Source: Thermoanaerobaculia bacterium
Lineage (GTDB): Bacteria > Acidobacteriota > Thermoanaerobaculia > Multivoradales > J023
DNA length: 64,000 nucleotides
Reading direction: 5' to 3'
NCBI GenBank assembly: GCA_028066595.1
Contig: JALCBJ010000027.1
Span: forward strand, 1-64,000
Shown here: one piece after another, positions 7,078 through 64,000 of the stretch
Layout: the number at the start of each line of letters is the position of its first letter
Position numbering within the stretch: the first letter of the stretch is position 1
The notes under the pieces: model-generated
What the model was told of the DNA's origin: nothing
Seen by the model: only the letters and a program-made list of their open reading frames with translations
The model's database searches: none
Program-made: the position numbers and the translations under genes

Positions 7078-7887
7078 ATGTCTATGGTCACTGCGGAAGC
7101 GCTTCCTTCGGCGACGGCTTTCCCTGCCTGGCTTGCCAGAGTCGCGGATCTGACCCGCGAATCCTGGGACAGGTTGATCGACAATCGGTTGAGGCTGATT
7201 CGAATACCGGGTTTCGCCTCCGACACCGAATGTGAGGCTCTGGTTCGGGAGGCGGAGCAGATCGGCTTCGAGCTGTACCGTGAGGTGAGCCCACCGATCG
7301 CGCGGATCGGCGTGACGCTCTTCGAGCACGACGGGATCGGCCATGAGGACTATTTCGTGTCGGCTCAGAAGGCTCGCGAGATCCAGCGCAGGATCTTCGC
7401 CCGATCGTTCGATCCGATCGAACGCCTCATCTCCATGATCCAGTCCAGAACCGGGTATCCGACGGGAGTCGCCTTGGATTCTCAGCACGGTCCGTATTTC
7501 GCTGGAACCGTCCGGCGGATCGAAAGCGGCACCCGCCTGCACATCGACTACGCTCCTGCGGAGCACCCGAGTTGGGAGGTCGCACAGGTGTGCGCGCAAC
7601 TGGCCTGGAACGTCTATCTCGAGCTACCTGAAAGCGGCGGAAACACCCATATCTACGAGCGCCAATGGGTGCCTGCGGACGATGGGCACAAGGAGACAGA
7701 TTCCTATGGCTACGATTCAGCGGTCGTGGCCGGCTCCGAGTGTGTGACCTTCAAGCCGACGCAGGGTGATCTCTATCTCTTCAATAGCAGGAACTACCAT
7801 CTCGTCGACGCAAGTGTCGGTCACCGTACGACGGTGAATTCGGCGGTAGGCCAGACCCGCGACAACAAGGTGGTGCTCTGGTCGTGA
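7078..7887 (+). CDS. 2-oxoglutarate/Fe(II)-dependent oxygenase, probable amino-acid hydroxylase
   Basis: Non-heme iron oxygenase of 269 residues. The iron ligands are readable: His155 and Asp157 in RLHIDYAP and the distal His241 in NYHLVDA. Arg250, nine residues later, is placed to bind 2-oxoglutarate. An HxD rather than HxG/A motif points to hydroxylation rather than halogenation. The overall look is closer to BesD-like enzymes that act on free amino acids than to the phytanoyl-CoA type. It starts a three-gene run with a zinc alcohol dehydrogenase and a ProC homologue, the same reaction order as leucine to 4-methylproline, where the first step is leucine 5-hydroxylation. That substrate is inferred from context only. 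It could instead hydroxylate another residue of the peptide. Confidence 0.85.
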   Translation: MSMVTAEALPSATAFPAWLARVADLTRESWDRLIDNRLRLIRIPGFASDTECEALVREAEQIGFELYREVSPPIARIGVTLFEHDGIGHEDYFVSAQKAREIQRRIFARSFDPIERLISMIQSRTGYPTGVALDSQHGPYFAGTVRRIESGTRLHIDYAPAEHPSWEVAQVCAQLAWNVYLELPESGGNTHIYERQWVPADDGHKETDSYGYDSAVVAGSECVTFKPTQGDLYLFNSRNYHLVDASVGHRTTVNSAVGQTRDNKVVLWS

Positions 7888-10088: not shown

Positions 10089-11261
10089 TTAGTAGCCGAG
10101 ATTTGCCGCCGCGAAATCACGCATCACTTCTTCCGCGCCGCCGCCGATGGCGTTGACTCGGACCTCGCGATAGATGCGTTCCACTCGCGTGCCGCGCACG
10201 TAACCGGCACCGCCGAAGATCTGGAGCGCCTCACGGGCGCAGCGCTCCATCGTCAGAGACGCTTGGTTCTTGAGCAGACAGATATCGGCTGTGGGTTGCT
10301 CGCCCCGGTCGGCCAGCCAGACCAACTGCTCGAGATATGCCTGGGTAGCGCGGATGGCCATGGCCATGTCGGTCAGCTTGTGGCGGATGACCTGTTTGGC
10401 GATGAGCGGCTCGCCGAAGACCTGCCGCTGGCGGGCGTAGGCCAGAGCATCTTCGTAGCAAACTCGCGACAGACTGTTGCAACTGGCGATCATGAACAAC
10501 CGTTCGAGGGCGAAGTTCTGCATCAGCAAGCCGAAGCCCTGATTCTCGGCGCCGATGAGATTCTCGAGCGGTACACGACAGTCGCTGAACTCGAGAACGG
10601 CGATGTCCGCGCAGGCCCAGCCCATCGTCTTCAACCGCCTTCGTTGGAACCCGGGGGCATCGCGTTCGATCAGCAGTAGCGAGAGCCCACCAGGACCGCT
10701 GCCGCCGGTGCGTACCGCGACCGTGAAATAGTCGGCGCGTGTGCCGGACGTGATGTAGGACTTGGCTCCGTTGACCACGTAGCATCGTCCTTCGCGCACC
10801 GCGGTAGAACGCAGGCCGGCCACATCGGATCCGCCGGAAGGCTCCGTGACCGCAAGTGCGCAGATCTTCTCGCCGGCGAGGACACCGGGCAGGACCCTGG
10901 CCTTGAGTGCTTCCGATCCGGCAGCGACGACGGGGGGCATCGCGACGCCGTGGTTCATCAACGCAGAGGTCAGTCCTCCGGCGCCGGCTCGGGACATTTC
11001 CTCGGCGGCGATGATGCGATGGAAGTGGTCCTTCTCGAGGCCGCCGTAGCGGGCGGGGAATCCGAGTCCGAGGATGCCCGCGACGGCGGCTTTCCTGTAG
11101 AGCTCCGTCGGGAACGATCCGGCCTCCTCCCAACCGTCGATATGAGGCTCGATCTCCTCTCGTACGAATCGCGATACTGCGTGCCGGAACTCGAGGTGCT
11201 CCGCGGAGTAGTAAGGGCTCTTTGGGTTCTGTGAGGTCGCTGCGTCCTGGATGCCGGACAT
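10089..11261 (-). CDS. Acyl-CoA dehydrogenase family flavoprotein, last gene of the operon
   Basis: FAD enzyme of 390 residues that would desaturate an acyl or aminoacyl thioester. The FAD signature AVTEPSGGSDVAG is at about 137-149 and the C-terminal signature QIFGGAGYVRGTRVERIY is present. The usual catalytic Glu in the C-terminal Y-E-G motif is replaced by glycine (AIGGGAEE). A Glu at 253 in FALERLFMI matches the alternative position used by isovaleryl-CoA dehydrogenases, so activity is plausible. The ATG lies 4 nt after the stop of the thioesterase-bearing NRPS gene, placing it in the same transcript. Candidate substrates are the FAAL-loaded acyl chain or a carrier-bound residue such as prolyl; the sequence does not decide. 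Confidence 0.9.
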   Translation of the reverse strand: MSGIQDAATSQNPKSPYYSAEHLEFRHAVSRFVREEIEPHIDGWEEAGSFPTELYRKAAVAGILGLGFPARYGGLEKDHFHRIIAAEEMSRAGAGGLTSALMNHGVAMPPVVAAGSEALKARVLPGVLAGEKICALAVTEPSGGSDVAGLRSTAVREGRCYVVNGAKSYITSGTRADYFTVAVRTGGSGPGGLSLLLIERDAPGFQRRRLKTMGWACADIAVLEFSDCRVPLENLIGAENQGFGLLMQNFALERLFMIASCNSLSRVCYEDALAYARQRQVFGEPLIAKQVIRHKLTDMAMAIRATQAYLEQLVWLADRGEQPTADICLLKNQASLTMERCAREALQIFGGAGYVRGTRVERIYREVRVNAIGGGAEEVMRDFAAANLGY

Positions 11262-11265
11262 CGGG

Positions 11266-14200
11266 TCAGGACGCTTCGCTGACTGCGGCGTCGAGATCGG
11301 CTTCTAGCGATGCGGCCAGCTGATCGACGTGGGGAACCTGCGTCATCGTCTGGTGATTACCACCGACGAAGCGAGTCACGAGGCCGCGGCACAGCTCGGC
11401 CCAACCGAGATCTTCGAGGTCGGTGATCGTCGTAGCGAAATCGCGCTCTTCCTCGGCGCGGTATAGATGGATCCGGCCGCCGTAAGAAGGAGGCCGGTAT
11501 CGCTCCACGGCGGCGAAGTTGTTTTTCGCAACGCGCAACATCCTCCGCGCCTTGTCGACGTCGAAGCTCGGCGGAATGACGTCTTTCTTCTTCGCTTCCT
11601 CGATCACATAGTGCAACCGTTCCTCTTCGCCGAGCTGGCGTAACTCCCTGGCCCCGACTTCGAGCACACCGCCGACCAGAGCGACCAGAACATCGGAGTC
11701 GTCTTGCCGGTGCGATGGTGAGTCGACGACCCACGGCGAATAGGAGTCGAGCATGCCGAGAAAGGAGATCTGTTCGCCGGCAGCCTCGAGCTTGCGCGCC
11801 ATCTCGAACGCGGCGACGCCGCCGAAGGACCAGCCGAGAAGCGCGTAGGGACCACGCGGTCGTCGGGCACGAATCGCCTCGATGTATAGATCGGCCATCG
11901 CCTCGAGGCTCTCTTGTGGCTCCTGGCCGTGCGCCAAGCCGCGAGCTTCGAGCGCGAAGATCGGACGATCCCCGTTCAGGTGCGAGGCCAGCTGCCAGTA
12001 GCAGACCACATTGCCACCGCCCGGGTGAACGCAGTACAGAGGTTCCGCCGTGCCGCGGCCGCGGATCGTGACCATCGGCGACCAGTGCCGGGTCCCACGC
12101 TTTGCTTGGATCAGCAGGGCCAGCTGCTCGATCGTCGTCGCTTGAAAGAGCTCCGTGAGTGGTAGATCCACTCCGAGGACTTCTTTGACAATGGCCATCA
12201 TTCGGACCGCGGCCAGCGACGTGCCACCGAGGTCGAAGAAGCTGTCGTGCACGCTGATCTGTGACCTCTCGAGGACCTCTTCCCAGATGCCCGCCAAGAT
12301 CACTTCGATATTCGACCGCGGTGGCACGGTGGTCGCCGCACGCTCGGACCAGTCTGGTGCTGGCAGGGCTTCTCGGTCGATCTTGCCGCTCGGGGTCTTG
12401 GGCAAGTGTTCGAGAGCTACGAAGGCGGCGGGGACCATGTACTGGGGAAGCCGTAGCGCGAGAGCCTCACGCAACGAAGCGGTGGCCACCTCCTTCCCCG
12501 GTTCGGGAACGAAATAGCCGACCAAGGCCGGCTCACCCGAGGGTAGATCGCGCGGAGCCACCACCGCCTGCACCACGCCGGATTGGTCGACCAGCGCCGT
12601 CTCGATCTCGGCGGGCTCGATGCGGTAACCGCGGATTTTCACCTGGTGGTCGATCCGACCGAGAAAATCGAGCTCGCCATCGGCACGCAGCCGCGCCAGA
12701 TCGCCGGTTCGGTAGAGTCTGCCACCGAGCTCCCCACTGTGCGGATCTGGAACGAACGCTTCCGCGGTCGTGGCCGGTCGGCCGACGTAGCCGCGAGCGA
12801 GGCAGATGCCGCCCACGTAGATCTCACCCGGCGCACCGGGGGCGACCAGCGAGGTTTGCGGATCGCACAGGTAGACGCGTACGTTCTCCATCGGCCGGCC
12901 GATCGACAAGCGCGCGTCGTGGTCTGGCTGGTAGGCGATCGTCGCACAGACCGTGGTCTCGGTGGGACCGTAGGCGTCGAGGAACATACGGTTTCGGCTC
13001 CACTCGGCCGCCAGCCGAGGCGCGCACACTTCACCCGCGACAATGAGAACCGCGAGATCGGGAACGTCAGCGGCGCGCAGCAACTCGAGGGACGAAGGCG
13101 GAATGGTCGCGTGAGTGATCCGTCGCTCCCGTAGCGTCGTGGTCAATTTCGCGCCGGGTAGCAATTGATCGCGAGATCCCAGGTGAAGCGCCGCGCCCAC
13201 GACCAGGGCCATCACGATCTCGGAAACGGCGGCGTCGAAGCTCATGGAAGCAAACTGTAGAACCCGGCTATCGGACTCGACCTGGAAGGCGCGGCTCTGC
13301 GCTTCGGCCAGGTTGACCAAACCCCCGTGGGTCAGCAGGGCGCCTTTGGGTCGGCCGGTAGTGCCGGACGTGTAGATGACGTAGGCCGCTTGGCCGTGTT
13401 TGAGCTCGCCCGGTGGCCTTCGTGGCCTGTGGCGCGCCACCAGGGCCCACTCTCGATCTAGGTCGAGGGTCTCGACGCCGGAGGAGGCGAAGGCCGGACT
13501 GGTGTGGCTATCTGTCAACACTAGGCGGAGGCCCGAGTCCGCGACCATGAAGGCGAGGCGGTGCCAGGGATACTCGGGGTCCAGCGGTAGAAACGCTCCA
13601 CCCGCCTTGAGCACTCCGAGGATGGCAAGCACGGCCGAGGTGGCACCGCGAGTCATCGAGATGCCGACCAGGCTCTCCGGCCCGACCCCGCGGCGGATCA
13701 GCTCATGCGCCAGCTGGTTGGCACGGCGATCGAGCTCGCTGTAGCTGATGAGCTCGTCCTCCGTGACGACCGCCGGAGCGTCGGGGCATTGTTCGACCCG
13801 GGCCTCGAAACGGGCCGGAAAGCTCTCCTGGGGAGGCTCGGTCACGCTGTCCGATGCCCAGCTCGACAGCCGCTGGCGCGCTCGCGCGCCAATCAGATCC
13901 AGGCGACGGAGCTCAGCGGTCGGCGCGGTCAGGCCGGCATTCAAGACCTCCTGCCAGCTGGCGACCAGGTCTCCGATGGTCGACTCGCGATAGAGGCCGC
14001 GGTCGAAGCGAGCTCGGCCATCGATGTGATCGGTTTCTTCCTCGAGGTCGATCTCGATCGCTGCGCCGACTTCGGGTAGCTCCGAGTGAAGGCCCTCGAG
14101 ACGCACGGTCAGCTCGAAGAACGGCCGATCTCCGAGCCGGGCTCCGAGGGCGTCCAGCACCTGCTCGTAGGGGATCAGCTGGTGAGAGTAGGCGTCGAGC

Positions 14201-14610
14201 AGCGTGGAGCGCATCGCGAGCAAGAGCTGTTGAAACGAGGCGTGCGGTTCGATGTTGGAGCAGATCGCCAGGGCGTTGACGTGGTCACCGACCAGGCGTG
14301 CGGGACTTCCGACGCATACCTGCGAAGTCCGCAGGTGAGGCTGCAAGCTGACGGATAGGGCGGTCATCAAGGTGGTGTAGCTCAGAAAGCTGCCGCCGTT
14401 GGTCAGCCTCTGTAGGCGTCGGTAGAGATCTCCATCGATTTGCCATCGCAGCTCCCCTCGGCGCTCGCCATGAGCTTCGGAGGGAGCGAAGTCACAGATC
14501 AGCGAAGATCGGGACTGACGGCCGGAAAGGCGCTCTCGCCAGTACTCGCGTTCTTGGTACAGACCACGGTCGAAGGTGGGTGGTCGCCGCGTGGCTCCTT
14601 GGCTGATCAT
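11266..14610 (-). CDS. Terminal NRPS module: half-C-A(Tyr)-T-TE
   Basis: Last assembly-line protein (1114 residues), adding the final residue and releasing the product. Residues 15-240 are only the C-terminal lobe of a condensation domain, with no HHxxxDG. The A domain (about 265-755) has YTSGTTGRPKG at 413-423, and its pocket residues read D-A-S-T-I-A-A-V-C-K, very close to the published tyrosine code. The carrier serine is Ser798 in LGGTSLAA. The thioesterase (about 855-1114) has GWSFGG with nucleophile Ser928 and a late histidine in GGNHQTM. The ATG at 14610 overlaps the radical SAM stop as ATGA; a longer open frame upstream is only an overlap artefact. The missing N-lobe suggests that the C domain ending the protein encoded at 17047-21831 makes this peptide bond. 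Release by hydrolysis or macrocyclisation cannot be told. Confidence 0.93.
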   Translation of the reverse strand: MISQGATRRPPTFDRGLYQEREYWRERLSGRQSRSSLICDFAPSEAHGERRGELRWQIDGDLYRRLQRLTNGGSFLSYTTLMTALSVSLQPHLRTSQVCVGSPARLVGDHVNALAICSNIEPHASFQQLLLAMRSTLLDAYSHQLIPYEQVLDALGARLGDRPFFELTVRLEGLHSELPEVGAAIEIDLEEETDHIDGRARFDRGLYRESTIGDLVASWQEVLNAGLTAPTAELRRLDLIGARARQRLSSWASDSVTEPPQESFPARFEARVEQCPDAPAVVTEDELISYSELDRRANQLAHELIRRGVGPESLVGISMTRGATSAVLAILGVLKAGGAFLPLDPEYPWHRLAFMVADSGLRLVLTDSHTSPAFASSGVETLDLDREWALVARHRPRRPPGELKHGQAAYVIYTSGTTGRPKGALLTHGGLVNLAEAQSRAFQVESDSRVLQFASMSFDAAVSEIVMALVVGAALHLGSRDQLLPGAKLTTTLRERRITHATIPPSSLELLRAADVPDLAVLIVAGEVCAPRLAAEWSRNRMFLDAYGPTETTVCATIAYQPDHDARLSIGRPMENVRVYLCDPQTSLVAPGAPGEIYVGGICLARGYVGRPATTAEAFVPDPHSGELGGRLYRTGDLARLRADGELDFLGRIDHQVKIRGYRIEPAEIETALVDQSGVVQAVVAPRDLPSGEPALVGYFVPEPGKEVATASLREALALRLPQYMVPAAFVALEHLPKTPSGKIDREALPAPDWSERAATTVPPRSNIEVILAGIWEEVLERSQISVHDSFFDLGGTSLAAVRMMAIVKEVLGVDLPLTELFQATTIEQLALLIQAKRGTRHWSPMVTIRGRGTAEPLYCVHPGGGNVVCYWQLASHLNGDRPIFALEARGLAHGQEPQESLEAMADLYIEAIRARRPRGPYALLGWSFGGVAAFEMARKLEAAGEQISFLGMLDSYSPWVVDSPSHRQDDSDVLVALVGGVLEVGARELRQLGEEERLHYVIEEAKKKDVIPPSFDVDKARRMLRVAKNNFAAVERYRPPSYGGRIHLYRAEEERDFATTITDLEDLGWAELCRGLVTRFVGGNHQTMTQVPHVDQLAASLEADLDAAVSEAS

Positions 14611-17027
14611 GGGTTGGAGGTACCCGTCGAGGCCAGGTCGAAGCTGAACGCCGCCTCGGCGTCGAGGGCGACCGCGGCCTCCACCGCGAGCTGTTGGTCG
14701 AGGCTCGCTCGCGACACCGGCTCGGTGCCGTCGGCCCAGTGGCTCAAAATTCGGCAGGTCTCCCGGCCGAGCTCGGTCATGTCGGCAAGATGTCGCTGCG
14801 CGGGATCGAAGCCGATCGTCAGCTCGGGTCGCTCGGTAGAGCCACCGATCGTCAACTCGATGCTGATCTGCCGGGCAATCCCGGGTGCGTCGTGGTCCAG
14901 ACGCTCGCGACTCGGTGACGACTCCCCGTCGCGATGGACGCAGACCATGGTGTCGAAACGCGGCGGGTCGTCGCCGCGCCACGCGAGCCAGGCTGGATCC
15001 TGCAGACAGGCGAGAGCAAAAGGTCGGTGCTCCTCGAAGGACGCCAGCTCCTCGTGCATCGAGTGGAGGACCCGATCCGGATCGAGCCGCGAGACCTCGA
15101 GCTGAAGTGGCGCCAGCTCGCCGACCTCGCCACTGGCAGAGATCGGTGACAGCAAGGTCAGCTCGGAGCGACCCTGCCACCGGGCCAAGGCGGCGGCGAA
15201 CGCGGCGACGATCACGTCCGGCTGTTTCCACCTCGTGTCGAGGTCACCAGCTGCCGGCCACTGGACTTGCTCACTCGACCAGCCCGGTTCACCGATGGCG
15301 TCGTTCCGGGTTGTGGTGTTCTTTGCCGGCCTGGAGCCGTACGTGGACCAAAATTCTCGGGCGGCGCTATAGCGACCTGGCCACCAGAGATCGGAAGTCG
15401 TGAGGCCCGGACGGTGCTCGTGGTCGGTGCCGAACTGCGAGCACCTCTCGAGATCGCCCAGCAGGGCAGGCCGTTCGGAATGGCGCCGGTGAAACAAGAG
15501 ATTCTCCCGCACCACGGTGTTGAACGAGGCGACGAAGTCCATCACTTGCTGCCAGCTCATTCCCTGCCGTTGCAAGTAGAAGGTGCTCCATTGCTCGAAG
15601 CCCCATTGTGGTAGCCAGCACGACCCCTCCACGGACAGGAAGAGGTCGTCGATCACCGCGCACGCCGTGGCGGCATCCATGGTCGCGTGGGACCAGTTGA
15701 AGGCCGAGCCCTCGATGTCGTAGCGCTCCCGCTGTTGCCAGATCGGCGTCATCGGATCGCAGTACCAAAGCTGCGCTCGAAAGAAGTCGGGCTGGCCGGT
15801 CTCGAGGAGGTCTCGGGTCTCCTCGACCGTTTCCATGGTCTCGCCGGGAAAGCCGATGATGAGGCTGGCGTAGGTCGAGATCCCGGCCTCCCTGAGCCGC
15901 GGAAGAGCCGCGAGATAGTGCTGGCGGCGTGCGGTTTTGTTCATCCGCTTCAGCATCGTGTCGCTACCGGACTCGATCCCGAGGAACACACCCTCGCAGC
16001 CGGCTTGGCCCATGAGATCGATGATCTCGGCACTACCGTGGTCACTTCGATAGAAGCTATTCCATCGAAAGCCGTAGTCGTTGCGGATCATCATCTCGAG
16101 GATGGCGCGAAAGCGTTTCGGCGGCACGTTGAAGGTGTCGTCGAGGAACGTGAGCGTGTTGACGGTTCCGAGATCTCGGATCGCGTCGAGCTCGCGTTCC
16201 ACCGCCTCGACCGACTCGAAGACATATTTCCCGGCCCGTTGCGGAAAGCCGCAGAATGAGCAGGAGAAGGGGCAGGACTTGGCAGTGCGCAACGAGATCA
16301 TCTGACCCACGTCGGCGGGCGGGAAGAGCGACAGGTCCGGCTGGTTGTCCTCCAGGGAATTGACCTCGGGCTCGCATCCGGTGCGCGTGAACCGACCATC
16401 GATTCGGTAGGCGATATTCGGTACGGAGGAGAGATCTTGGCCGCCGCGCAAGGCTTTCAACAGCCGCGCGAGGGTCGCCTCGCCTTCCTGATTGATCACG
16501 TAGTAGTCGCCGCCGAGGTAACCGAAAAGCCGGGCCAACGTCGCTTCGTCATTGGTTCCGGACTGGTTGGCGATGAAAGGGCCACCGATGATCACGGGCA
16601 CCGACGGGTCGTGCTGACGGACGAAGGAAACGATCTCCGAGATCGGTGCCGGGGAGACATAGAAGGTCGTGAGGATCGCCACCGTACGGACCGAGCCGGT
16701 CGCCAGCTTGTCGGCCAGGCGATCCTTTTCGAGCTGGAAGGCATTGACGTAGTCGAAGCTCAGACCCTGGCGAGACAAGTAGGTGCCGAGATAGGCGATT
16801 CCCGGTGACAGGAAGTCTGTATTGTGAAACTGCTTCTCTCCGGACGCCCGGTGGTAGTGACTGAGCGCGTCGAGCGCGCGCATCGGCCTGCCGTCGACCT
16901 CGACGAAGGCCAGGCGTAGATCCCGATAGGCTCCGGCATCCCCAGATCGGACCATCTCTACATAGCTTTGGAAGTCCGAGTCGTTGTGGCCGATCAGCAG
17001 GCAATCTACGTTCGTTGCTTCGCTCAC
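14607..17027 (-). CDS. B12-binding radical SAM (PhpK-like) fused to a C-terminal half-condensation domain
   Basis: Protein of 806 residues. Residues about 1-200 form a cobalamin-binding domain, with the opening VDCLLIGHNDSDFQSYVEM typical of PhpK-like enzymes from biosynthetic clusters. The radical SAM cluster motif is Cys252-x3-Cys256-x2-Cys259 (CPFSCSFCGF). This family methylates unactivated carbon or phosphorus centres, so a C-methylation of the peptide or a precursor is likely. About 250 further residues, beyond the usual ~550, match the C-terminal lobe of an NRPS condensation domain (pattern VIVAAFAAALARWQGRSELT and a late RFDTMVCVHR strand) without any active-site histidines. The GTG start at 17027 has an excellent AAGGAG. 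It sits between two NRPS genes, and the tail may dock it to the assembly line. The methylated position is unknown. Confidence 0.87.
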   Translation of the reverse strand: MSEATNVDCLLIGHNDSDFQSYVEMVRSGDAGAYRDLRLAFVEVDGRPMRALDALSHYHRASGEKQFHNTDFLSPGIAYLGTYLSRQGLSFDYVNAFQLEKDRLADKLATGSVRTVAILTTFYVSPAPISEIVSFVRQHDPSVPVIIGGPFIANQSGTNDEATLARLFGYLGGDYYVINQEGEATLARLLKALRGGQDLSSVPNIAYRIDGRFTRTGCEPEVNSLEDNQPDLSLFPPADVGQMISLRTAKSCPFSCSFCGFPQRAGKYVFESVEAVERELDAIRDLGTVNTLTFLDDTFNVPPKRFRAILEMMIRNDYGFRWNSFYRSDHGSAEIIDLMGQAGCEGVFLGIESGSDTMLKRMNKTARRQHYLAALPRLREAGISTYASLIIGFPGETMETVEETRDLLETGQPDFFRAQLWYCDPMTPIWQQRERYDIEGSAFNWSHATMDAATACAVIDDLFLSVEGSCWLPQWGFEQWSTFYLQRQGMSWQQVMDFVASFNTVVRENLLFHRRHSERPALLGDLERCSQFGTDHEHRPGLTTSDLWWPGRYSAAREFWSTYGSRPAKNTTTRNDAIGEPGWSSEQVQWPAAGDLDTRWKQPDVIVAAFAAALARWQGRSELTLLSPISASGEVGELAPLQLEVSRLDPDRVLHSMHEELASFEEHRPFALACLQDPAWLAWRGDDPPRFDTMVCVHRDGESSPSRERLDHDAPGIARQISIELTIGGSTERPELTIGFDPAQRHLADMTELGRETCRILSHWADGTEPVSRASLDQQLAVEAAVALDAEAAFSFDLASTGTSNP

Positions 17028-17035
17028 GGACTTTT

Positions 17036-17041
17036 CTCCTT
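17036..17041 (-). promoter_or_regulatory. Strong ribosome-binding site that fixes the radical SAM start
   Basis: AAGGAG on the minus strand lies 8 nt before the GTG at 17027. It supports that start over an upstream in-frame codon inside the preceding NRPS gene and is the best Shine-Dalgarno in the operon. Confidence 0.75.
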
Positions 17042-17046
17042 GCAGG

Positions 17047-20000
17047 TCAGAACCGGAATGCCTCGACCAAGTCGCCGGCCAGAGTCTCCGGAGGTGGCGC
17101 CGGAGCCTGGGGCAGACCGAAGTCGACATCGAGCAACCGTTGCTCCGGCCGGTCGGCGAGGACCTCCAGTAGCAGCAGGAAGCGGTCTCTCATCTCGATG
17201 ATCGTCGAGGGATCGAAGAGATCGCTGTCATAGGCCAGCGATCCCGCGATGCCTCGGTCGTGTTCTTCGAGTGCCATCAGCAGGTCGTAGCCGAGATGGC
17301 CGGCATAGGTCGAATATGGCTCGAGATCGAGATCGCCCAGACGCAACCGGGACCGGGTCTTGCTCTGCAGGGTCATTGCGACCTGTGCGATCGGATGGCG
17401 GTGCGGTTGGCGCTCGGGGAGGAGGTTGCCGACCACCAGATCGAACGGCAGATCCTGATGGGAATATGCCTCGATGGCAGTCTTTCGCGTCCTGCCGAGC
17501 AACTCGTCGAAGGACGGATCTCCAGTCAGATCCAGGCGCAGTGCCACCACGTTGGCGAAGGTGCCGATCAGAGGCTCGACCTGAGGGTGACTTCGATTGG
17601 CCACCGGGCACGCGATGATCTGATCTTCGTTGCCGGTGTAGCGGTAGAGAAGACAAGAGAATGCTGCCAGGAGAGCCATGTAGAGACTGGCACCGTGCTC
17701 CCGGGTACGCTCCTGGAGCCGGGTGGTCAGGTCGGTGTCGAGCTGCAGCTCGATGCAGTCGCTGCGCAGACTCGGCACGGTCGGACGAGGTCGATCCAGG
17801 GGCAGAGGCGCCAGCGGCGGAGCTCCGGTGAGTCGGTGGCACCAATACTCGAGCTGACCCTCGAGAACCCCGCCGACTTGTTGGCGCTGCCAGTGCGAGT
17901 AGTCGGCATATTGCACCTCCAGCTCGCTCAGGGGCGACGGCAGGGCGGTGACGAAGGCGCCATAGAGCGCGGAGAGCTCGGTGGTGATCACATCCACGGA
18001 CCAGCCGTCCGAGATGATGTGGTGCATCACCACGATCAGCACGTGATCGCGCGCCGAGCATCGGACCAGGCAGAGCCTCAGCAAGGGTCCCGTCGCGAGA
18101 TCGAAGGGCTTTCGGATCTCTTCGTCGATGAGCCGCTCGATCCAGCGTGTCTGGAGCCCAGCACCGGATGCCGACAGGTCGATGAGCCGAAGCGCGGGAC
18201 GGCTGGCGGTAGCGACGAGCTGTACCGGTGTCCCACGTTCATCGTGGAAGGTCGTGCGGAGCGACTCATGCCGGCGGACGATCTCCACCAGCGATTGGTG
18301 AAGCGACTCGAGGTGTAGCCTGCCGTGGAGCCGGAGAGCTGCGGGCATACTGTGGTTCGAGGTTCCGGCCGACATCCGTTCCAAAGTCCACATCCGCTCC
18401 TGGGCAAACGAGAGGCGCCGTCGGTCACCATCCGACGCCGTGGTGATCGGCGTCACAGCGGCTCTCTCGTTCTGTCGGAGCTGCCGGCTGAGGGCGGCGA
18501 TGGTCGGACATTCGAAGAGATCGCGCAGCGACACTTCGGCACCGGTTCGACCGCGGATCCTGCTCAGAAGCCGGGCGGCTAGCAGCGAATGACCGCCCAG
18601 GTCGAAGAAGTCGTCGTCGATGCCGAGCGTCGGCACATCGAGGATCTCGCGCCAGAGATCTACGAGGAGCGATTCCAGTGGATCTCGTGGCGCTCGGGAG
18701 CGATCCTGCGGACTCCGCGGGCCGGGATCCGGCAGCGCGCGACGGTTGATCTTGCCGCTCGGAGTCTTGGGAAACTCCTCGAGCAGGACGAAGGCTTTGG
18801 GCAGCATGTACTCCGGAAGCAGCCCACGCAGGTGACGAGCCAGCTCCTCCTCGTCCGGTCGCGAGCTCTTCGACACGACGTAGGCGACAAGGTACGGCCC
18901 GGTGGTCGAATCGCGCTTGGGCACCACTACCGCCTGCGTGATCCCCGGGAAGTCCATGAGAGTGGCCTCGATCTCCCCGGGCTCGACCCGGTAGCCACGG
19001 ATCTTGACCTGATGATCGATGCGACCGAGGAACTGGAGCGAACCGTCGTCCGACCTCCGGCACAGATCGCCGGAGCGGTAGAGCCGGTCGCCGGGGCGTG
19101 CGCCGAACGGATCCGGCAAGAAACGAGCCGCCGTCTGTGCCGGCCGGTGGACGTAGCCCCGACCCAGGATGTCGCCGCCGAGCACGAGCTCGCCGTCGAG
19201 GCCTGGGGACGACAATCTCAGAAAGCCACTGGTGACATGGGCGCGTGCGCCTTCGATCGGTCGGCCGATCGAGGGCAAGTGGGGCCAATCGGCGGGTTCT
19301 CCGCGTAGCGGATGGAACGTAGCGAGGTGCGTCTCGGAGGGGCCGTAGTGATTGTCCAGCGTCGTGACGTTTCGGCTCAGGACCGCTCGAATCGCCGGCG
19401 TCATCTGCAACTGTTCGCCGGCTGTGTAAAGGTGCCGAAGAGTCGGTGGCATCCCGATCGCGGCCGCTTCCTCTGCCAGCTGCTGGAGCGCCACGAACGG
19501 CAGAAACATGCGTTCCACCGCGGTCTCGTGCAGGAGTCTCAGCAGCTCGACCGGATCTCGCCGGATCTCGTCGGAGATCAGATGCAGCGCTCCGCCCTCG
19601 ACCCAGGTGGAGAAAGTCTCCTGCATGAAGACGTCGAAGCTCATCGGTGCGAACTGGAGCGTGCCGCGTGGTGGTGGATCGGTCTGCCCAGCCTGCCAAA
19701 AGGCGAGGTTGCGGAGCGTCCGATCGGGGATCGCGACGCCCTTCGGCTCACCGGTGGAGCCCGAGGTATAGACGATGTACGCGAGCTGGTCCGGAAGCGC
19801 CGGACGATGGTGGGTGGAGACCGCCGGACGCCCGGCGGCGTACGGCCGGCCTCGCTCGAGCCAGAGGAGCGCGGTCGCCGAGTCCTGCGCGGCTTCACAC
19901 TCGCGGCTGGCAAGAATCAACGTCAGACCGCAGTCGCGCTCGAGGAAAGCGCGCCGCTCGGCGGGGTAGGCAGGGTCGATGGGCACCAGCACGCCGCCGG

Positions 20001-35152: not shown

Positions 35153-35162
35153 GGAGATCGTC

Positions 35163-53737: not shown

Positions 53738-53924
53738 CTGAGTGCTCCGGGTACGACGGCGGAACGAGGAGGACGGTGGAGGGTCCTGGTAGTCCGAGGT
53801 TTGGATGTCCGCGATGACGCCTTGACGTGGGCGGTTCGCCTCGCCGAATTCCTCGTCCACCCGGCGACGCGGAGGAATCGGGGAACAGTGACGGCACGGC
53901 CGAGCCTTCGGGAATCATGCGAGG

Positions 53925-56900
53925 TCAAGCTTCCTGGTATTGCGCGTGGATGCCACTGGCATCTTCGGCGGTCTCGGATTTCGCGGGGTAGGATCCGCTC
54001 GCGTCGCGGCTCTGGCCCAGCGCCCTGCGCGCCTGCCGGCGTCGCAAAGCCGCGTCGGGCCTGTGGCCCCGTTGCCGCTGCCGGCTCGCCGTGCGATCGG
54101 CGAGCCCATCTTCCTGGGCTCCGTGGTCTAGGAAGTCCGCCAAGGAATGAATGGTCGGATACTGGAACAGCGTCACCACGGACACCTCGACGCCGAGCTC
54201 ACGGCGCAGGCGCTCGTGGACCCGCAACATCGACAGGGAGTGGCCTCCGAGCTCGAAGAAGCTGTCGTGGACGCCGGCTTTGTCGTGACCGAGCACGTCG
54301 TTCCAGATCGCTGCGATCGATCGCTCGGTGGGCGAGCCGGGCTCGACGACAGGAATGTCCAGATCACGCTCGGCAGCGGTCACGGAAGGCAGCGCCCGTC
54401 GGTCGAGCTTGCCACTCGGCGTGCGAGGAAGGGCGTCCAGCTCGATCACGGCACTGGGAATCATGTAGCCCGGCAGACGGTCTCGCAGACTCGCGGCAAT
54501 GTCGCCGTAGCGGATCGACCGACCCTCGGTCGATGTGGCGTACGCGATCAGGCTCGCCGACCCAGAGGCATCTCGACGAATGGCCGCTGCAGCTTCGCCG
54601 ATCGCCGCCAGGCTCCGAAGCTGCGCTTCGACTTCGCCGAGCTCGATCCGGTGACCTCGAAGCTTCACTTGACGATCCCTACGGCCAGAGAACACGAGCG
54701 CGCCATCGTCCCGCCGACGAGCGAGGTCGCCGGTCCGATAGAGACGCTGGCCTTTCTCCGTCGCGTAGGGATCTGGCAGGAAACGGCCCGCGGTTTCGGC
54801 GGCATTCCGCACGTATCCGCGTCCGATGCCGGCACCGGCCAGATGGAGCTCGCCATCTACTCCTGTCGGGACGGGAGACAGTCGGTCGTCGAGGACGTAT
54901 GCCCGCACGTTGTCGATCGGGAGGCCGATCGGTACGTCGAGTGCTGCGTCCGAGGTGGTCGCCACCCAAGTCGTCGAATCGACGGTCGCTTCGGTGGGCC
55001 CGTATAGATTGACGATGTCGAGCTGATCGCCCACGAGTCGACGGACTCGAGCAGGTAGATCCGCTGCCAACGCCTCTCCACCAACAAAGAGTCGCCGCAG
55101 GCCGGCGAAGGACTCGGCGCAGCGCGGATTCTCTACCAGGATCTCCAGCAGTGTCGGTACCACCTGCAGGATCGAGATCCGTTCTTCCCGGATCACGGCG
55201 AGTAGTCGATCGGGATCGTTCAGGGCGTCCGTTGGTGGCATGACCAACGTCGCACCCGCGAGCCACGGAGCCCAGTACTCCCAGATCGAAGCGTCGAAGC
55301 CGACCGGCGTCTTCTGAAGCACACGATCGCCGGGGCCCAAGGGGAACCGCCGTGCCATCCAGCGCATGTGATTGACGATCGTGCGATGGGGGATCGACAC
55401 ACCTTTTGGGGAGCCGGTGGAGCCGGAGGTGTAGATGACGTAGGCCGGATTCTCTGGCAAGGCCATCGGACCACTACGCACCGCGGCAGGTCCGCGAGTC
55501 AGCTGCGCGATCGAGAGTCGAGTGGTCGAAGAAGGTAGGGATTCCAGGAGCTCGCAGCGAGTCAGGATCGCCGGGGATCCGGAGTTGGCCACCATGGCCT
55601 CGACCCGGGACGCCGGGAGGTCGGTGGCCACCGGAAGGTACGCTGCGCCCGCCTTGAGAACGCCGAGGATGCCGATACCCTGATCGAGGGTATGACCGGC
55701 AGCGACCGCCACCAGGGCCTCGGCACCGATTCCACGCTCGGATAGAGAGTTGGCCAGCGCCTCGGCCCTGCGGTCGAGCTCGCGAAAGGTCAGCGATCCG
55801 TCGACGGTCGCCATGGCGATGGAGTCGGGAGTCTCCGCAACCTGGCGCTCGAAGGTTCTGTGAAGCAGCGCATCCGGCTCCTCGGAGACGACCTTGGGGC
55901 CTTGATGGTCGAGGATCAACCGCTGCAATTGGTGCGGTTCCAGGATCTCGAGCTGGGAAAGGCGCAGGTCCGGCTCGGCGCCCGCGTGACGGGCGAGACG
56001 GGCGAAATGGTCGATCAAGCGAACGACGGTCGCTTCTTCGAGCACATCGGCGTTGTACTTCGCCGAGCCGATCAGGCCGTCACCGGCCTCGACCATTTCG
56101 AAGGAAAGGTCCAGCTGTCCTTCCTGCTGTGCCAATGGATATGGGGTCAGCTCGTGTCCACCCCAAGACACGCGGGTGGCGGCTCCACCGGAGAGCAATT
56201 GCAGAGCCTCCCCCGAGTCCGCCTTGCCCTGATAGACGAAGTCGACCTGGAAGAGCGGCAGCCGGCTTGCGTCGCGATCCGGTTGCAGCTTCTCGACCAA
56301 CAGCGGAAATGGCATGTCTTGATGGTCGAGATCTGAGAGCAGATCTCGGCGCATCCGGTGGAGGAACTTGCGGAACGAAGGATCGCCCTCGGCATCGCAG
56401 CGGACCACCACGGCGTTGACGAAGTGACCCACGAGCTGTTCCAACTCGCGGTCGGTTCGGCCTGCGGCAGGTGTTCCGATCGGCAGATCGTCGAGCCCGG
56501 TCACACGGTGGAGCAGGGTGGCGTAGAGCGAAAGCAGTACGGCGAAGAGCGTGGTGCCTTCGACTTGCGCCAGGGTCTGCAGCTTGGCGGCGATCTCCGG
56601 CTCGATCGCCAGCGGAAGGGATCGTCCGCGATAGGTCTGGATGCTCGGGCGTGGTCGTTCCGAACGAATCTCGAGGACCGGTAAGGTGCCGTCGAGGCGG
56701 TTCCGCCAGTAGTCGAGGAGGCTCTGACCTGCGTCTCCCGAGAGCAGCTTCGTTTGCCAGTCGACATAGTCGGCGTAGTCGATCGGTAGCGGCGCGAGCT
56801 CCGCCGGGTCGCCGCCACAGGCCTCTGCATAAAGAACGCCGAGGTCCGCGACCAAGAGTCCGAGAGATAGGCCGTCGCAAGCGATGTGGTGAACCACGAG

Positions 56901-59900
56901 CAGTATCACCGTATCGCCCGTCGCGCGCTCGAACAGGTGGACTCGTAGGACCGGACCTCGGCGAAGGTCGAAAGGCCGGAGGTAGGTCTGCTCGACCTCG
57001 CTCCGCAGACGTTCGGACGACCAAGAGCCGGCGTCCGTGATCTCGAGCTCGAAGGCTTCGGCGCCGCCTTGTCGCTGTCGGGGCTGACCGTCGTGGGTTT
57101 CGATACGCAGGCCGAGAATCGGGTGACGCTCGAGCAACCGACGCAGTGCGGAGGCCATGGGTTCCGTCTGGATGCGAGCCCGGATCCGCGCCGAGAACGA
57201 CACGTGGTAGGCGGCGCTTTCCGGTGCCATCTCGTAGAGGAGCCATTGTGCTCGCTGCCCATGGGACAGCGGGAACGACGCCTTCGGGTCACGTTCTGAC
57301 GACGTCAAACGAGGCCCCCGAGATTCGTCACGGCGTAGCTCGGGCAGGCGCCTGGCGAGCTCCCTCAACGACGGTCCGCGGATCAGCAGGAGGGTCGGCA
57401 AGGCGACGCCGCAGGCGCTCTCGAGTCGATGGCGCAACTCGAGGGCCATCAGCGAGTCGAGACCCATCGCCGTCAAGGGTGCTTCGGGATCCAGGTCCGC
57501 CTCCGCGGCTCCGAGCACTCGCGCAGTCTCGCCGGTGAGCCACCGTAGGAGATCTTCCGGTGAGTCGAGCCATTTGGAGGCCGTATCGACGGCATGGCCG
57601 TTCTCGGCGTCGATCGGTCCCACGAGACGTTCCAAGATCGCCTGGCCGGCGGCCGACGGATACCGTTTCGCCCACTGGTGCCAGTCGGCGTCGAGGACGA
57701 CGACGTGTCCGGATTCGGACCACAGCCGATCGGCGAGCTCGAGGCCCTGTTCGATTTCTAGGGAGCCACTCGCGAACTCGAAGGATCCACCTCCTGATAC
57801 AACACGAGCTTCGGCGGCCAAACCGACCTCGTTCCAAGCTCCCCAGGCGAGACTGAGCGCGTGCGTACCACGCGCGCTACGCGCGTGGGCCAGGGCGTCC
57901 AAAACTGCGTTGGCTGCGGCGTACGAGGAAAGACCGGGGGAGCTCAAGGTCGCCGAAGCCGAGGAAAACAAAACGAAGAAATCGAGCTCGGGGAAGAGCT
58001 GATCGAACGCCAAGGCCCCCGTGACCTTGCCGCCCTGCACCTCGCGCCGAGCCTCACGGTTCAGCTCACCGACGAGGCCGTGTCGGATCGCTCCGGCGGC
58101 GTGAATCACGCCTCGGATCTCCGGCCAGCCCTCGTCGCGGAACTCTCGATACCAGCTCCCGATGGCTCCCTCGTCTGCCACGTCCACCTGGGCGAGATGA
58201 ACCGAGGTTCCCAGGGACTCGAGCTCCAGCACTCGGCGGGCGCGTCGGCCCGCTGGGGTCATCGGATCGAGGTCCCGCCAGTTCCGCCGATGAGGCAGAC
58301 CTGACCGCCCCATCAGGACAAGACGTCTCGCACCCCGCGCGACCAGCCAACGGGCGAATGTCAGGCCGAGGCCACCGAGACCGCCGGTGATCACGTAGGT
58401 GGCGTCTGCACGCAATGCTGGCCGGTGGCCAGCCTTCGGCTCGGAGCCGCGGGTCAGCCGCGGCACCATGAGCTCGCTTCCGCGAACCGCGATCTGGTCT
58501 TCTCCCTGGAAATCCTCCAGAGCCGTCGCCAGGGCCTCGGCGACATCTGCGGAAGCGTCGGAGGGTTCGAGGTCGACGAGGCCGCCCCATAGGCGAGGCT
58601 GCTCGAGAGACAGACTACGTCCCATACCCCAAAGCGCGGTGCCCGTCAGTCCCACGAGGTCGACGGAGCCCTTGGTGTGCCCGGACGACGCCGTAGATTC
58701 GGGTTCTGTGACGCACGCGCCTCGGGTGACGATCCACAGCCGTGCGTCTCCGCGCTCGCCGATCGCGGCAGCCAGGTCGGAGGTTTGCGCCAAGAGTCGG
58801 TCGATCCTCCGTGCGGCATGAGCACCGGGGCTGGCGTCGTCCTCGGAGGTTTCGATCGCATCGCCGTCGGCCTCGGCTATCTCGATGGACCGCAGGTCGA
58901 CGACGCCGAATTCGCCCCGCATGTCCTTCAAGGCGTGACGAATGGATCGAGACGGGTCGATCTTTGCGATCTGCACCTCGGAGCCGCGCTGGACCAGTGC
59001 CGTGGCCAAAGCCTCGCAGGTCACGCCGTCATGCCCCACGAGCAGCCAAGACGAGGGAACTGGCGGATGGTCCTTCGGGTCGTCTCGCGGTACCTCGAGG
59101 GGCTCGACGGCCTGCCAGCGAAGTCGCAGGAGAGCTTCGGACGACGCGGTTGGTCGCCGGCCGCTGGCGATGAACTCGAGGCGCAGTCCGCGGACTCTGG
59201 CGAGAAGTGAGCCGTCAGAGCTACGGATGTGCAGGTCGCCACACACTCTTCTACCGCCAGACTCGATCTGACTCACGATGGCATGACTGAACAGCGGGCC
59301 GGAGCCCACGAGCGAATGCAGCTCGAGGGATCCAGCGTCGAGACCTACGAAAGCTCCAGCGGTCCGATCTTGGACGCAGGCCGCCAGGACCTGCCCGCAA
59401 GCGTCGACGAGGGCGGGATGTGCCAGGTAGCCCTCGACTTCCAATCCTTCCGGTATCTCCACGAGTCCGAGCGCTTCATCGGCGCCGCACCAAACACGAC
59501 GAAGGCCCTGGAAGGCCGGTCCCCATTCGTTGCCGCGTTCGGTCCACTGCTCGTAGAAATCGCTGCCCGGGATGGCCTCACCGCAGCGGGAACGGACGGC
59601 GTCGAGATCCTCGAGCTCCGGTGTCTGCTCGATGCCGCGGACGCGGAACTCCGCATGGCGACTCCAGGGAGTCTGGGCGCCGGTCGGCCTCGGGGCCGCG
59701 GATTCGGATCGGCTGTACACCGTGATCCGACCCGCTGGCTGACCACCCTGCTGGGGCGCTGTGGCCTCGTAGCGGGTTTGGACCTGCCGCCGTTCCGAAG
59801 GTGTCAGGACCATCGCGCGATCGAATTTCGCGCTATGAAGCTCGACGCCGATCGGGCCCGCCAGGGAGCGGAAGGCCGTCATGGCGAGCTCGCAGAATCC

Positions 59901-62900
59901 TGCCGCGGGAAAGATCACCGTTCCCTCGACTTTGTGGTCCGCGAGGAAGCCCGGGCGATCTGCCGTGAGCACTGACGTCCAGACGGTGACGTCGGGGTGG
60001 TCGTGGTCGGCGACGGGTGTGGGTGCCCCGAGCAGAGGATGGGAGCTCGTCGGAACATCCGCGATCGTTTCCGAGGACGGCGTCCCGGTGCGCCGCGACC
60101 CATCGCTCGACGTCTCGAACCAGTGGCGGGAACGCCGAAATGGATAGGTGGGCAACGAGACGCGTCGACATTCTCGACCCTCTTCGACGGCCTCCCACCG
60201 GATTGCGCTACCCTCGACGAACAAGGCCGCCAACGTGTCGCAGAGACGATCCCATGGCGCAGCGCGATCATCCAGACTGGTGTGCCAACGGGCCTTAGCT
60301 CGCTGCTCGGCGTTCAAGCAAGCACGTCCTTGGGAAGTCAGCGAATTCTGGGGCCCTATCTCCAAGAAACTGTGCGAGCCGCCGGCGACCAGCTGCCCGA
60401 CTGCGCCGGCGAAGTCCACCGGCCTCCGGATCTGCTCGATCCAGTACTGCGGGTCGTCGGGAGCCAGATCCACTTCGGTGGTCCCGCGGTGAAGGGTCGA
60501 GACGAAGTCCAATTTCGCCGGCGAGAGACTCGCTCCATCTAGCAGACGGCGAAACGGGGTCGTCATCGGCTCCGTCATCGGAGAGTGAAACGCGCGGTCG
60601 ACCTCCAGACGGCGACTGACGATGCCTTCGGCGTCGAGGTGGGTGCAGATCGCGTCGACGCCTTCGGAGGAACCGGAGATAGCGGTGCGCTTTGGACCGT
60701 TGATTGCGGCGAGCCAGACTCTGTCGTCACCGGCCGATCGCAAGATCCGCCCGACATGCTCGGCGTCCGCCGCGATTACCGCCATCGCACCGGGCGGCAG
60801 CTCGTCCATCAGACGTGCGCGGCCGGCAACCAGGCGAGCGGCGTTCTCGAGGTCGAGAATGCCAGCGACACAAGCCGCGGCGTACTCGCCCAAGGAGTGA
60901 CCGCAGACAGCCTGGGGCTCGAGTCCCCAATGCATCCACATCTCGGCGAGCGCATATTGAAGAGCGAACAGCGCCGGCTGTGCGACCGCTGTCGGCGTAG
61001 GTATCGTCTCGTCGCTCCTGGAGGAGAGGAGAAAGTCGCGGACTCGTGGCTCGAAGAGCTCCGTCACACGATCGAGCGACCGACGAAAGGCGGGATGATC
61101 GCGATACAGGCGTTCCGCTCGTCCTGCCAGCCGCCCTCCCTGACCCGAAAACAAGAAGGCGAGCCGCGGCGGTCGACGCGACCTGGCTTCCAAGACCCCA
61201 GGTGCTCGACCTTCCCGGGCGTATCGAGCGAGCACCGAGCGCGCGCCATCGCGGCCGGAGAACTGCACGGCGGCGCGAGATTCGAAGCGCGAACGACCGG
61301 TATTGGACGTGAACACGACGTCCGCCAGTGGCTGATCCGGATGGTCACCGAGGTGCCGGCCGAGCCGATCGGCAAGCTGCCGCAGATCCGGCGCTCTCTT
61401 GGCCGACAGGAAGAGCAGGTGACGACCGAGGTCCGACACCTCGGCACCTCGCGCGCTCTCCTCGGGCCCAGCGTGATCGGGTGCTTGCTCCAGAACGACG
61501 TGAGCGTTCGTGCCCACGAAACCGAAGGAGCTCAAGGCAGCCCGGCGGAGGCGGCCTCTCGGCCAAGCAGAGCTGGCATCCGGGATCGAGATCGGAGCCC
61601 CGATCTCTCCGATCAGGGGGTTCAACCGATTCAGATGGAGATGAGCTGGTATCCGGCGGCCGACGATGGCGAGCGTTGCTTTGATCAGACCAGCGATGCC
61701 AGCGGCAGCCTCGAGATGGCCGATGTTGGTCTTGACCGATCCGAGCTTCAACGGATGTTCTGGATCGCGGCCTTCGCCGTATACCCGATGGAGGGCCCGC
61801 ACTTCGATCGGATCGCCGAGGCTCGTGCCGGTGCCGTGCGCCTCCAGGAGATCGATGTCGCCAGCGTCGAGGCCAGCACCGGTCAGGGCCTCTCGAAGCA
61901 CGGATTCCTGTGCCTTGACGCTCGGAGCTGTGAGGCCGTTGCTGCGGCCGTCTTGATTGATGGCGGAACCGCGAATGACCGCCAGGACGCGGTCTCCGTC
62001 CTCCACGGCGTCATCCAGTGGCTTGAGCACGACGGCGCCACACCCTTCGCCTCGCACGTAGCCGTCGGCCCCCTCGTCGAACGTCTTACACCGGCCGTCG
62101 CCGGCGAGCATTCCAGCGCGTGCGAAGTGAATCGACAGCTCGGGAGTCAAGATCACGTTGACGCCCCCGGCGATCGCCAGCCCGCACTCTCCGGCGAGCA
62201 AACTTCGGCAAGCGAGATGGACTGCCACCAGAGATGACGAGCATGCGGTATCGACAGCCAGCGCCGGGCCCTCGAGGCCGAGGGTGTACGCGAAGCGCCC
62301 GGCCGCCGCGCTGGATGCCGCACCGATTCCGAAGTGCCCGTCCACCTCTCGACCGGTGGTGAGGCGCTGGAGTCCGTAGTCGGCCGAGCTGATACCGACG
62401 AAGACGCCGGTGCTCGACCCTCGCAGTCGATCAGCGGCAATGCCCGCGTCCTCGAGCGCCTCCCAGCCGACCTCCAGCATCAGCCGCTGCTGTGGGTCCA
62501 TGGCGGCTGCTTCCCGGGGCGCGATGCCGAAGAACGCTGGATCGAACCGATCGATTTCGTCGAGAAGTCCACATGCCCGGATCTGCTCGATCTCCTCGGG
62601 AGTGACGTCCGGATGATCGCGTTCCAAGTCTGGCCAGCGGGCGGTCACCACATCGCCTATGGCGCAGCGACCCTCGGCCAACAAACGGTCGTATTCGTCG
62701 ATCGATGGCGCACCCGGGAACCTGCAGCTCATCCCGACGATGGCTATAGATCGTTCGCCAGCAGGCGATTTTCTTAGCCGTTGACGAGGCTGTTCGTCTC
62801 CGCAAAGGCGAGCGACGATAGCTTCGAGGGAAGGATGTTCGTAGACCAGGGTCGGCTCGACCTCGCGACCCAGCCAGGACTCCAGCTCTCCAGTCAATCC

Positions 62901-64000
62901 GATCGCCTGTCGCGACACCAAGCCGTAGCTGGCAAGAGGTTCCCGGGTGTCGATGTCGGATGGCGGAATTCCGACCATGGCCCCGATTCGTCGAAGCAGC
63001 CAGTCGCGTACATGGATCCGCTCCCGTGGGGAGGCAGCCGCCGCGGGAATGGGAGCAGCTTCACGTTCGAGGTTCCACCGTGCAATCTCGGAAAGAGCGT
63101 CGGAGCGAAGCAGCTCCACGACCTGGCGACGGCGGATCTTGCCGCTCGTGGTGACCGGCAGGCTGCCGCGGCGGACGAGGACGAGCGTGTCGATTGCCAG
63201 ATCGTGTTCCTGGGCTACCGCTCGATTCGCCTTCTCGAATAAGGATCGGTCATCAGTATCGGCGCGGAAAGACTTGGGCATTTCCTGAACGGCGACGATG
63301 CGTTCGCGGGTTCCGTCGTCGAGAGACACGACCGCGCAATGACCAGGTGCAAATCGGATGTCCGCTTCCTTGATCGTCAGCTCGAGATCTTGGGGATAGC
63401 GATTCGCGCCGTTGACGATGATCACGTCCTTGGCCCGTCCGGTGACGAAGAGGTCGCCGTCGGTACCGAGGAAACCCAGATCACCGGTGCGCAGGAACGT
63501 TGTCGGATGGTCTTCCAGTCGCGCGCCGAACGTTTCGATCGACGCGTCGGGCAGCCCTCGATAGCCCAGCGCCACGCTCGGGCCGGAAACCCAGATCTCA
63601 CCGACCGTGTTCGGGGGACACTCCAACGAGCTTTCGGGATCGACGATCGCCACCGTGGTTTCTCTGGGGGTGCGACCAGAGCTCACGAGCTCCAGACCCG
63701 CATCGGATCCGGTTGCTGCGTCTACGCGTCCGGCGGCGAGGGCATCACGGTCCACCGTTCGCAGGACCGGATCCGTCCCTGGGGGCTTCATCGTCGTCAT
63801 CAAGGTCGATTCGGCCATGCCGAATGCCGGCTGAAACGAGGAGGCTCGAAAGCCTCGGGCAGCGAACGTCTCGGTGAAACGCCGAAGCGTCCGAGCGCGG
63901 ACCGGCTCCGCGCCGTTGACCGCGCTGCGCCAGGTGCTGAGATCCATGTCCTCGGCGATACCGTCCACCGCGGCTTTGGCGACACATTGGTCGTAGGCGA
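53925..64000 (-). CDS. Hybrid starter megasynthase: FAAL-ACP-KS-AT-DH-KR-ACP-C-A(Gln)-T (5' end outside window)
   Basis: At least 3358 residues are visible; the frame is open to base 64000, so the start lies outside. It begins in a fatty acyl-AMP ligase (to about 63110) with [19 protein letters not shown] and [15 protein letters not shown]. The adjoining ACP (about 62830-63030) has GLVSRQA. The KS (about 61480-62760) has DTACSSSL. The AT has GHSLGEY and RAFHS, malonyl type. The DH (about 59170-60060) has [10 protein letters not shown] and DACGQ. The KR is at about 57640-59160 with [13 protein letters not shown] and SSYAAAN. The second ACP has GLDSLMA. No ER is seen, so an enoyl chain results. 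The C domain has HHIACDG, and the A pocket D-A-W-Q-F-G-L-V-D-K matches a published glutamine code. The last T motif is LGGHSLSM. This protein starts the lipopeptide with a fatty acid. Confidence 0.95.

Follow-up and report, generated by a model that had tools for sequence, protein, structure and literature searches.

A PP-loop ATP pyrophosphatase domain embedded in the asparagine A domain of a predicted lipopeptide assembly line from a Thermoanaerobaculia bacterium

The Asn-coded A domain of the PKS/NRPS assembly line described here is interrupted by a PP-loop ATP pyrophosphatase domain. We see about an even chance that this embedded domain is an enzyme that uses ATP, and perhaps a [4Fe-4S] cluster, to rewrite the amide of Asn on the carrier, and that it marks an apparently undescribed class of A domains, spread over hundreds of species in about 15 phyla. 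The rest of the assembly line belongs to an already known type of system.

Results

The analysed stretch of DNA (the window) comprises the first 64000 bases of a 77115 bp contig (C191) in an Acidobacteriota host genome of 7.5 Mb, 228 contigs and 95% completeness. All of the biosynthetic genes in 10089-64000 form a single operon on the minus strand, and several of the adjoining synthetase genes overlap by a few bases. The earlier note advised looking for the 5' end past base 64000, and beyond that point the contig does hold the start of the FAAL gene (gene 1), at 64823; therefore the operon runs from 64823 to 10089 and holds eleven genes in about 54.7 kb (Table 1).

Table 1. Coordinates of the features. 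A-domain pockets were read by alignment of a GrsA fragment and numbered as in GrsA, the last letters of some codes being set by eye.
Feature	Position	Strand	Domains and remarks
Gene 1	53925..64000, on to 64823	-	FAAL-ACP-KS-AT-DH-KR-ACP-C-A-T (Pfam, motifs); pocket DAWQFGLVDK, Gln
Gene 1, KS	~61632-62753	-	
Gene 1, AT	60309-61157	-	
Gene 1, DH	59169-60041	-	
Gene 1, KR	57828-58403	-	
Gene 1, C	55917-57275	-	
Gene 1, A	54408-55853	-	
Gene 2	49205..53737	-	KS-AT-KR-T; beta-hydroxy C2 unit, statine-like after Gln
Gene 2, KS-AT	51094-53269	-	
Gene 3	45666..49208	-	TubC docking-C-A-T; pocket DLWSVGFVWK, unassigned (residue X)
Gene 4	39926..45676	-	KS-AT-cMT-KR-T; methyl, hydroxy C2 unit
Gene 4, KS-AT	43044-45220	-	
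Gene 5	35163..39935 (start approximate)	-	TubC docking-C-A-T-E; pocket DAQDLGLVDK, Gln
Gene 5, E	35220-36509	-	
Gene 6	29186..35152	-	C-C-A-T-E; pocket DFWNIGMVHK, Thr
Gene 6, first C	33776-35125	-	
Gene 6, second C	32372-33718	-	HHIVADR
Gene 6, E	29243-30544	-	
Gene 7	21828..29189	-	C-A-T-C-A(interrupted)-T; pockets DAWFHGFVCK, Leu-like, and DLTKIGEVGK, Asn
Gene 7, interrupted Asn A	22152..24668	-	A8 before insert, A9/A10 after
Gene 7, inserted PP-loop ATP pyrophosphatase domain	22335..23357	-	CxxC..CxxC zinc-type, SGGKDS, C141xxC144, C266
Gene 8	17047..21831	-	TubC docking-C-A-T-C; pocket DVQFYAHLAK, Pro-like
Gene 8, terminal C	17125-18414	-	complete
Gene 9	14607..17027	-	PhpK-family B12 radical SAM methyltransferase; GTG start, Shine-Dalgarno AAGGAG
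Gene 9, TIGR04479 match	15510-17006	-	
Gene 9, C-lobe-like tail	14721-15221	-	best aligned part
Gene 10	11266..14610	-	C-domain C-terminal lobe-A-T-TE; pocket DASTIAAVCK, Tyr
Gene 10, C-terminal lobe of C	13867-14556	-	
Gene 11	10089..11261	-	acyl-CoA/ACP dehydrogenase
Type II thioesterase	6211..6948	+	methylproline sub-operon; gene content as in griE-H
Fe(II)/2OG hydroxylase	7078..7887	+	proposed L-leucine 5-hydroxylase; HID...H triad
Zn alcohol dehydrogenase	7952..9073	+	NosE/GriF-like role
ProC-like pyrroline reductase	9070..9888	+	NosF role; second copy in genome

Pfam and motif reading recovered every domain that the earlier note had listed, in the order in which it listed them and on the minus strand. 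Its order of units, the FAAL loading (FAAL-ACP of gene 1), the two statine-like extensions (genes 2 and 4) and the two D residues (E domains of genes 5 and 6, motifs intact) are likewise borne out at the level of sequence. The motifs of all three KS, three AT and three KR domains, of the DH, the cMT, both E domains and the TE are intact. With its FAAL-ACP start, KS-AT and C-A-T modules and TE end, the locus has the domain order and motifs of a complete FAAL-initiated PKS/NRPS lipopeptide line with TE release, for which the residues can be predicted as follows: acyl + enoyl C2-Gln-(β-OH C2)-X-(α-Me, β-OH C2)-D-Gln-D-Thr-Leu-like-modified Asn-(4-methyl)Pro-Tyr-TE.

To this reading we add the two tandem C domains of gene 6, the second of which has HHIVADR in place of HHxxxDG, while its nearest solved relatives are ordinary C domains (teixobactin Txo2/Txo1). 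The KS-AT segments of genes 2 and 4 share 96% DNA identity over 2.18 kb, which suggests recent gene conversion or module duplication; an assembly artefact was rejected because the two copies differ at 77 positions plus gaps. Past the FAAL gene the same contig carries an ABC transporter (about 65277-67142), a TauD-type dioxygenase (69674-70771; L001:5674-6771) and a carbamoyltransferase (70812-72629; L001:6812-8629). These are possible tailoring genes outside the window: should the dioxygenase and the carbamoyltransferase belong to it, the cluster may yield a hydroxylated and carbamoylated product.

Four genes adjoin the operon on the plus strand; they encode a type II thioesterase, an Fe(II)/2OG enzyme whose metal triad reads HxD...H, a Zn alcohol dehydrogenase and the second ProC of the genome. 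The griE-H sub-operon converts leucine to 4-methylproline, and its griselimycin pathway, like nostopeptolide NosE-NosF, shares with our locus a 2OG hydroxylase, a Zn alcohol dehydrogenase and a pyrroline reductase (PMC5676206); a type II thioesterase is found here too, whereas the reductase is ProC-like and not GriH-like. A halogenase reading of the WelO5-like match of the 2OG enzyme was rejected because its iron triad is HID...H. A candidate Leu 5-hydroxylase, a NosE-type dehydrogenase and a pyrroline reductase are thus accompanied by a Pro-like pocket in gene 8, and therefore 4-methylproline is the likely residue there, predicted to be made from leucine by the enzymes at 7078-9888. The methylproline that had been called possible is now well supported by this dedicated sub-operon.

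The insert lies between conserved motifs of one and the same A domain: A8 (GRIDRELKIQGFRVDPAEIE) precedes it and A9/A10 (LPSHMVP...NSRGKID) follows it. The host A domain is otherwise complete and its pocket is readable as that for Asn. In an AlphaFold2 model of the A domain with the insert, the latter occupies a turn of the sheet of the C-terminal subdomain and the flanking strands are kept. The site between A8 and A9 is the classic one for interrupted A domains. The earlier note was right that a PP-loop domain is present, but it placed the domain beside the Asn A domain and not inside it, and it missed that the insert belongs to a widespread Asn-specific family.

The interrupted A domains of KtzH, TioS/TioN and McyA are likewise complete except that a catalytic domain separates A8 from A9; the described inserts are methyltransferases, oxidases and ketoreductases, and those in the studied cases act on the carrier-bound residue (PMC11355689). 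The same would be expected of the insert in gene 7, which is, however, none of these kinds: it has a PP-loop ATP pyrophosphatase fold and is nearly confined to Asn-coded domains. An interrupted A domain is not defined by the kind of insert that it carries, and so this difference makes the gene 7 domain a variant and does not exclude it from membership. No PP-loop insert in an A domain was found in the open-access literature searched, a weak absence since subscription papers lay outside the search. The PP-loop-interrupted Asn domain is therefore apparently an undescribed variant of interrupted A domains.

Among 396 genomes of the phylum, eight close copies of the insert were found in seven genomes, all of them in Asn-coded A domains, and a scan of 84,980 species genomes gave 307 relatives (stretches in GTDB genomes). 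E. coli genomes gave no match at DNA level. The best 80 of the 307, which were read at locus level, come, judged by their titles, from about 15 phyla, among them Cyanobacteria, Bacteroidota, Actinomycetota, Pseudomonadota, Chloroflexota, Verrucomicrobiota, Gemmatimonadota and Planctomycetota. In these 80, simple patterns for A8 before the insert matched 71 of the 76 readable copies and those for A9 matched 52 of 76. The host pocket is exactly DLTK(I/V/M)GEV(G/A) in 68 of the 74 readable host A domains from the same 80, as against a single Asn code among the 77 other A domains of these loci. In many of the loci the module comes after a stand-alone AMP ligase and an acyl-CoA dehydrogenase, and some also have a HupE/UreJ-like protein and a carrier protein.

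About half of the 77 non-host A domains (loci L034-L113) are a recurring partner with the pocket DS(A/V)xxAEVW, which suggests a conserved acyl-modified Asn-residue product across phyla. A further PP-loop Asn NRPS is encoded in the genome of the window itself, where it shares a small cluster (L028, G000:C52:1-19900) with an AMP ligase, an acyl-CoA dehydrogenase, a HupE/UreJ-like protein, a sulfotransferase and a C-A-T partner. Relatives also occur outside A domains. On a plasmid of Streptomyces sp. NBC_01216 (L124:14932-17112) the relative is N-terminal and followed by a condensation-like domain, beside asnB and about 10 kb from a tyrosine 2,3-aminomutase gene. In Streptomyces sp. NBC_00470 (L129:2704-3852) a distant stand-alone relative that keeps the CxxC...C triad adjoins ACP and ketosynthase genes. 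Two more stand-alone PP-loop relatives (L030:2347-3468 and L031:5151-6230; about 360 aa, 35-37% identity) have the same triad, the one in L031 next to an asparagine-synthetase-like ORF beginning MCGIAGMF; these two may reflect the ancestral function.

The insert was modelled by AlphaFold2 with a pLDDT of 90 and a pTM of 0.89. Among solved structures the N-acetyl-sugar amidotransferase (NASAT) 8wex matches its fold best (Z 20.8 over 308 residues, 18% identity). The tRNA thiolases NcsA and TtuA and also LarE come next, all at Z of about 12, and ArtA (9lei) is among the matches at Z 11.3. Sequence profiles place 8wex and the [4Fe-4S] enzyme MmLarE among the top PDB matches, and a weak Pfam QueC match is limited to the PP-loop region. 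The PP-loop SGGKDS and the zinc-type CxxC...CxxC, the latter common to NASAT, are invariant in 41 sequences, and so are three extra cysteines, C141xxC144 and C266; tens of further positions are invariant across about 15 phyla. C141 and C144 align with [4Fe-4S] MmLarE in a profile alignment, by which the triad may bind a [4Fe-4S] cluster. Neither the HisH/HisF2-linked NASAT of Massilia nor a homologue next to AsnB in Azospirillum has any of the three extra cysteines.

Thus the insert resembles NASAT (WbpG/WbuX, PDB 8wex; PMC10607449) in its whole-domain fold, zinc tetracysteine motif and SGGxDS PP-loop. It differs in residing within an NRPS, whereas NASAT is a stand-alone sugar enzyme with HisH/HisF2 partners, and in having the triad that the compared HisH/HisF2-linked member lacks; the ammonia-supplying partners present at the Massilia NASAT were not seen among the annotated genes around the insert. 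With the [4Fe-4S] sulfurtransferases NcsA, TtuA and MmLarE it has in common the PP-loop core and a CxxC after the PP-loop, MmLarE being one of the best PDB sequence matches. It differs from them in that Z is only about 12, that their substrates are tRNA or the nicotinate cofactor, and that the cluster in the insert is a putative one.

At the start of gene 10, which holds the Tyr module, the C domain is reduced to its C-terminal half. In the window, and also in a second genome (G025), the protein before the radical SAM enzyme closes with a complete C domain and the protein after it opens with a half-C domain, so that the arrangement C-A-T-C / PhpK-type radical SAM / C-lobe-A-T recurs. A gene break as the cause of the half-C domain is less likely, because G025 shares the arrangement and because the start of gene 10 overlaps the stop codon of the radical SAM gene. 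The tail of gene 9 gave no Pfam match; in weak profile similarity it resembles the half-C of gene 10 (68%, E 5e-5, against 0.3% for an A-domain control), and it is this one comparison that backs the C-lobe assignment.

Discussion

Since the host A domain selects Asn and since, in those interrupted A domains that have been studied, the insert works on the residue bound to the carrier, the probable target of the embedded domain is an amide of carrier-bound Asn. PP-loop enzymes of the families that it resembles adenylylate a carbonyl oxygen, which is then replaced. NcsA, TtuA and LarE place sulfur on their substrates. NASAT places nitrogen on an amide (PMC10607449), and the nitrile makers QueC, ArtA and PesC turn an amide into a nitrile through adenylylation, QueC-like and AsnB-like nitrile synthetases both being dehydrating enzymes for amides (PMC13060819). 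We propose that Asn would be loaded by the interrupted A domain and bound to the carrier before editing, and that the insert would adenylylate an amide oxygen of the Asn unit, either of the side-chain carboxamide or of the peptide amide at the Asn nitrogen. The adenylylated oxygen would then be replaced, with sulfur as the likeliest donor atom, delivered via a [4Fe-4S] cluster on the CxxC...C triad, to give a thioamide. We favour a thioamide, though not with high confidence, and then an amidine or a nitrile.

The cysteine triad points to sulfur and the fold points to nitrogen. It counts against our proposal that the closest full-length fold is that of an amidotransferase, which would make an amidine, and not that of a thiolase, and that among the genes of the operon none for a cysteine desulfurase, a sulfur carrier or an amidotransferase subunit was found. 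One rival is a NASAT-like amidine synthase, which would put nitrogen, drawn from ammonia or from within the molecule, in place of the amide oxygen, possibly forming a cyclic amidine: the fold match to NASAT is much the best and runs over the full length including the zinc motif, and 8wex is a sequence match as well. However, a true NASAT adjoins the ammonia suppliers hisH/hisF2, which the operon does not contain, and the triad that is invariant in the insert is missing from the NASAT compared, so that we regard this outcome as possible but doubtful. A nitrile synthetase would adenylylate the Asn carboxamide and eliminate AMP to yield beta-cyanoalanine, as known for QueC, ArtA and PesC (PMC13060819); the loaded residue already has a primary amide, and ArtA and QueC both appear among the matches. 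We consider this rather unlikely, for the fold is closer to NASAT, the similarity to QueC is confined to the PP-loop region and the triad is left unexplained. Finally, the insert could be a structural or degenerate passenger without catalysis, leaving an ordinary Asn in the product. Uninterrupted Asn-coded A domains do exist, for example in locus L116, so the insert is dispensable for Asn activation; yet the invariance of SGGKDS, both cysteine sets and tens of other positions across about 15 phyla leaves a passenger only a very slim chance.

The B12 radical SAM gene claimed by the earlier note is present as gene 9. It scores 699 in TIGR04479 (cut-off 600), the family of the PhpK P-methyltransferase of phosphinothricin tripeptides, and it has the NRPS context of PhpK too, as would suit a true P-methyltransferase and a peptide with a phosphinate residue. 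This we find barely credible. No phosphonate pathway was detected here: no PEP mutase exceeded the cut-off in the 95% complete genome (best TIGR02320 score 31 against 320), and no phosphonate genes were found among the cluster genes examined. Six related genomes hold seven homologues, mostly next to NRPS genes, which reach 563-623 in the same family, so that the PhpK family name probably overreaches. Gene 9 also differs from PhpK in its C-lobe-like tail and in adjoining a half-C module. The lack of a PEP mutase above the cut-off makes P-methylation unlikely and, together with the NRPS-side homologues, leads us to expect C-methylation by gene 9 instead. The enzyme comes directly after the Pro-like module and might be thought to methylate the Pro-like residue, which would then not be made from leucine. 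That is very unlikely, given the dedicated griE-H-like sub-operon and given that in other genomes the neighbours of the radical SAM gene flank Gln, Asp, Asn or Gly-like modules. With C-methylation as the expected reaction, the enzyme may act close to the MePro/Tyr junction on a residue bound to a carrier, and the half-C domains might perhaps position it; such a docking role is a guess.

In our best explanation, a complete assembly line, methylproline made from leucine, ATP-dependent editing of the Asn amide and radical SAM C-methylation would act together. We put it at roughly even chances as a whole, and the tandem C domains of gene 6 and the half-C domains, which depart from strict co-linearity, count against it, as do the two unassigned pockets, those for X and for the Leu-like residue.

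From the assembly line in the window an entire lipopeptide can be predicted, which would combine two statine-like units, a methylproline and an orphan radical SAM methylation. If the insert edits Asn on line, it is a genetic handle, present in hundreds of genomes, on a residue that current A-domain predictors read as plain Asn. ATP-driven amide rewriting would then be a new chemistry among the few domain types known to be spliced into A domains.
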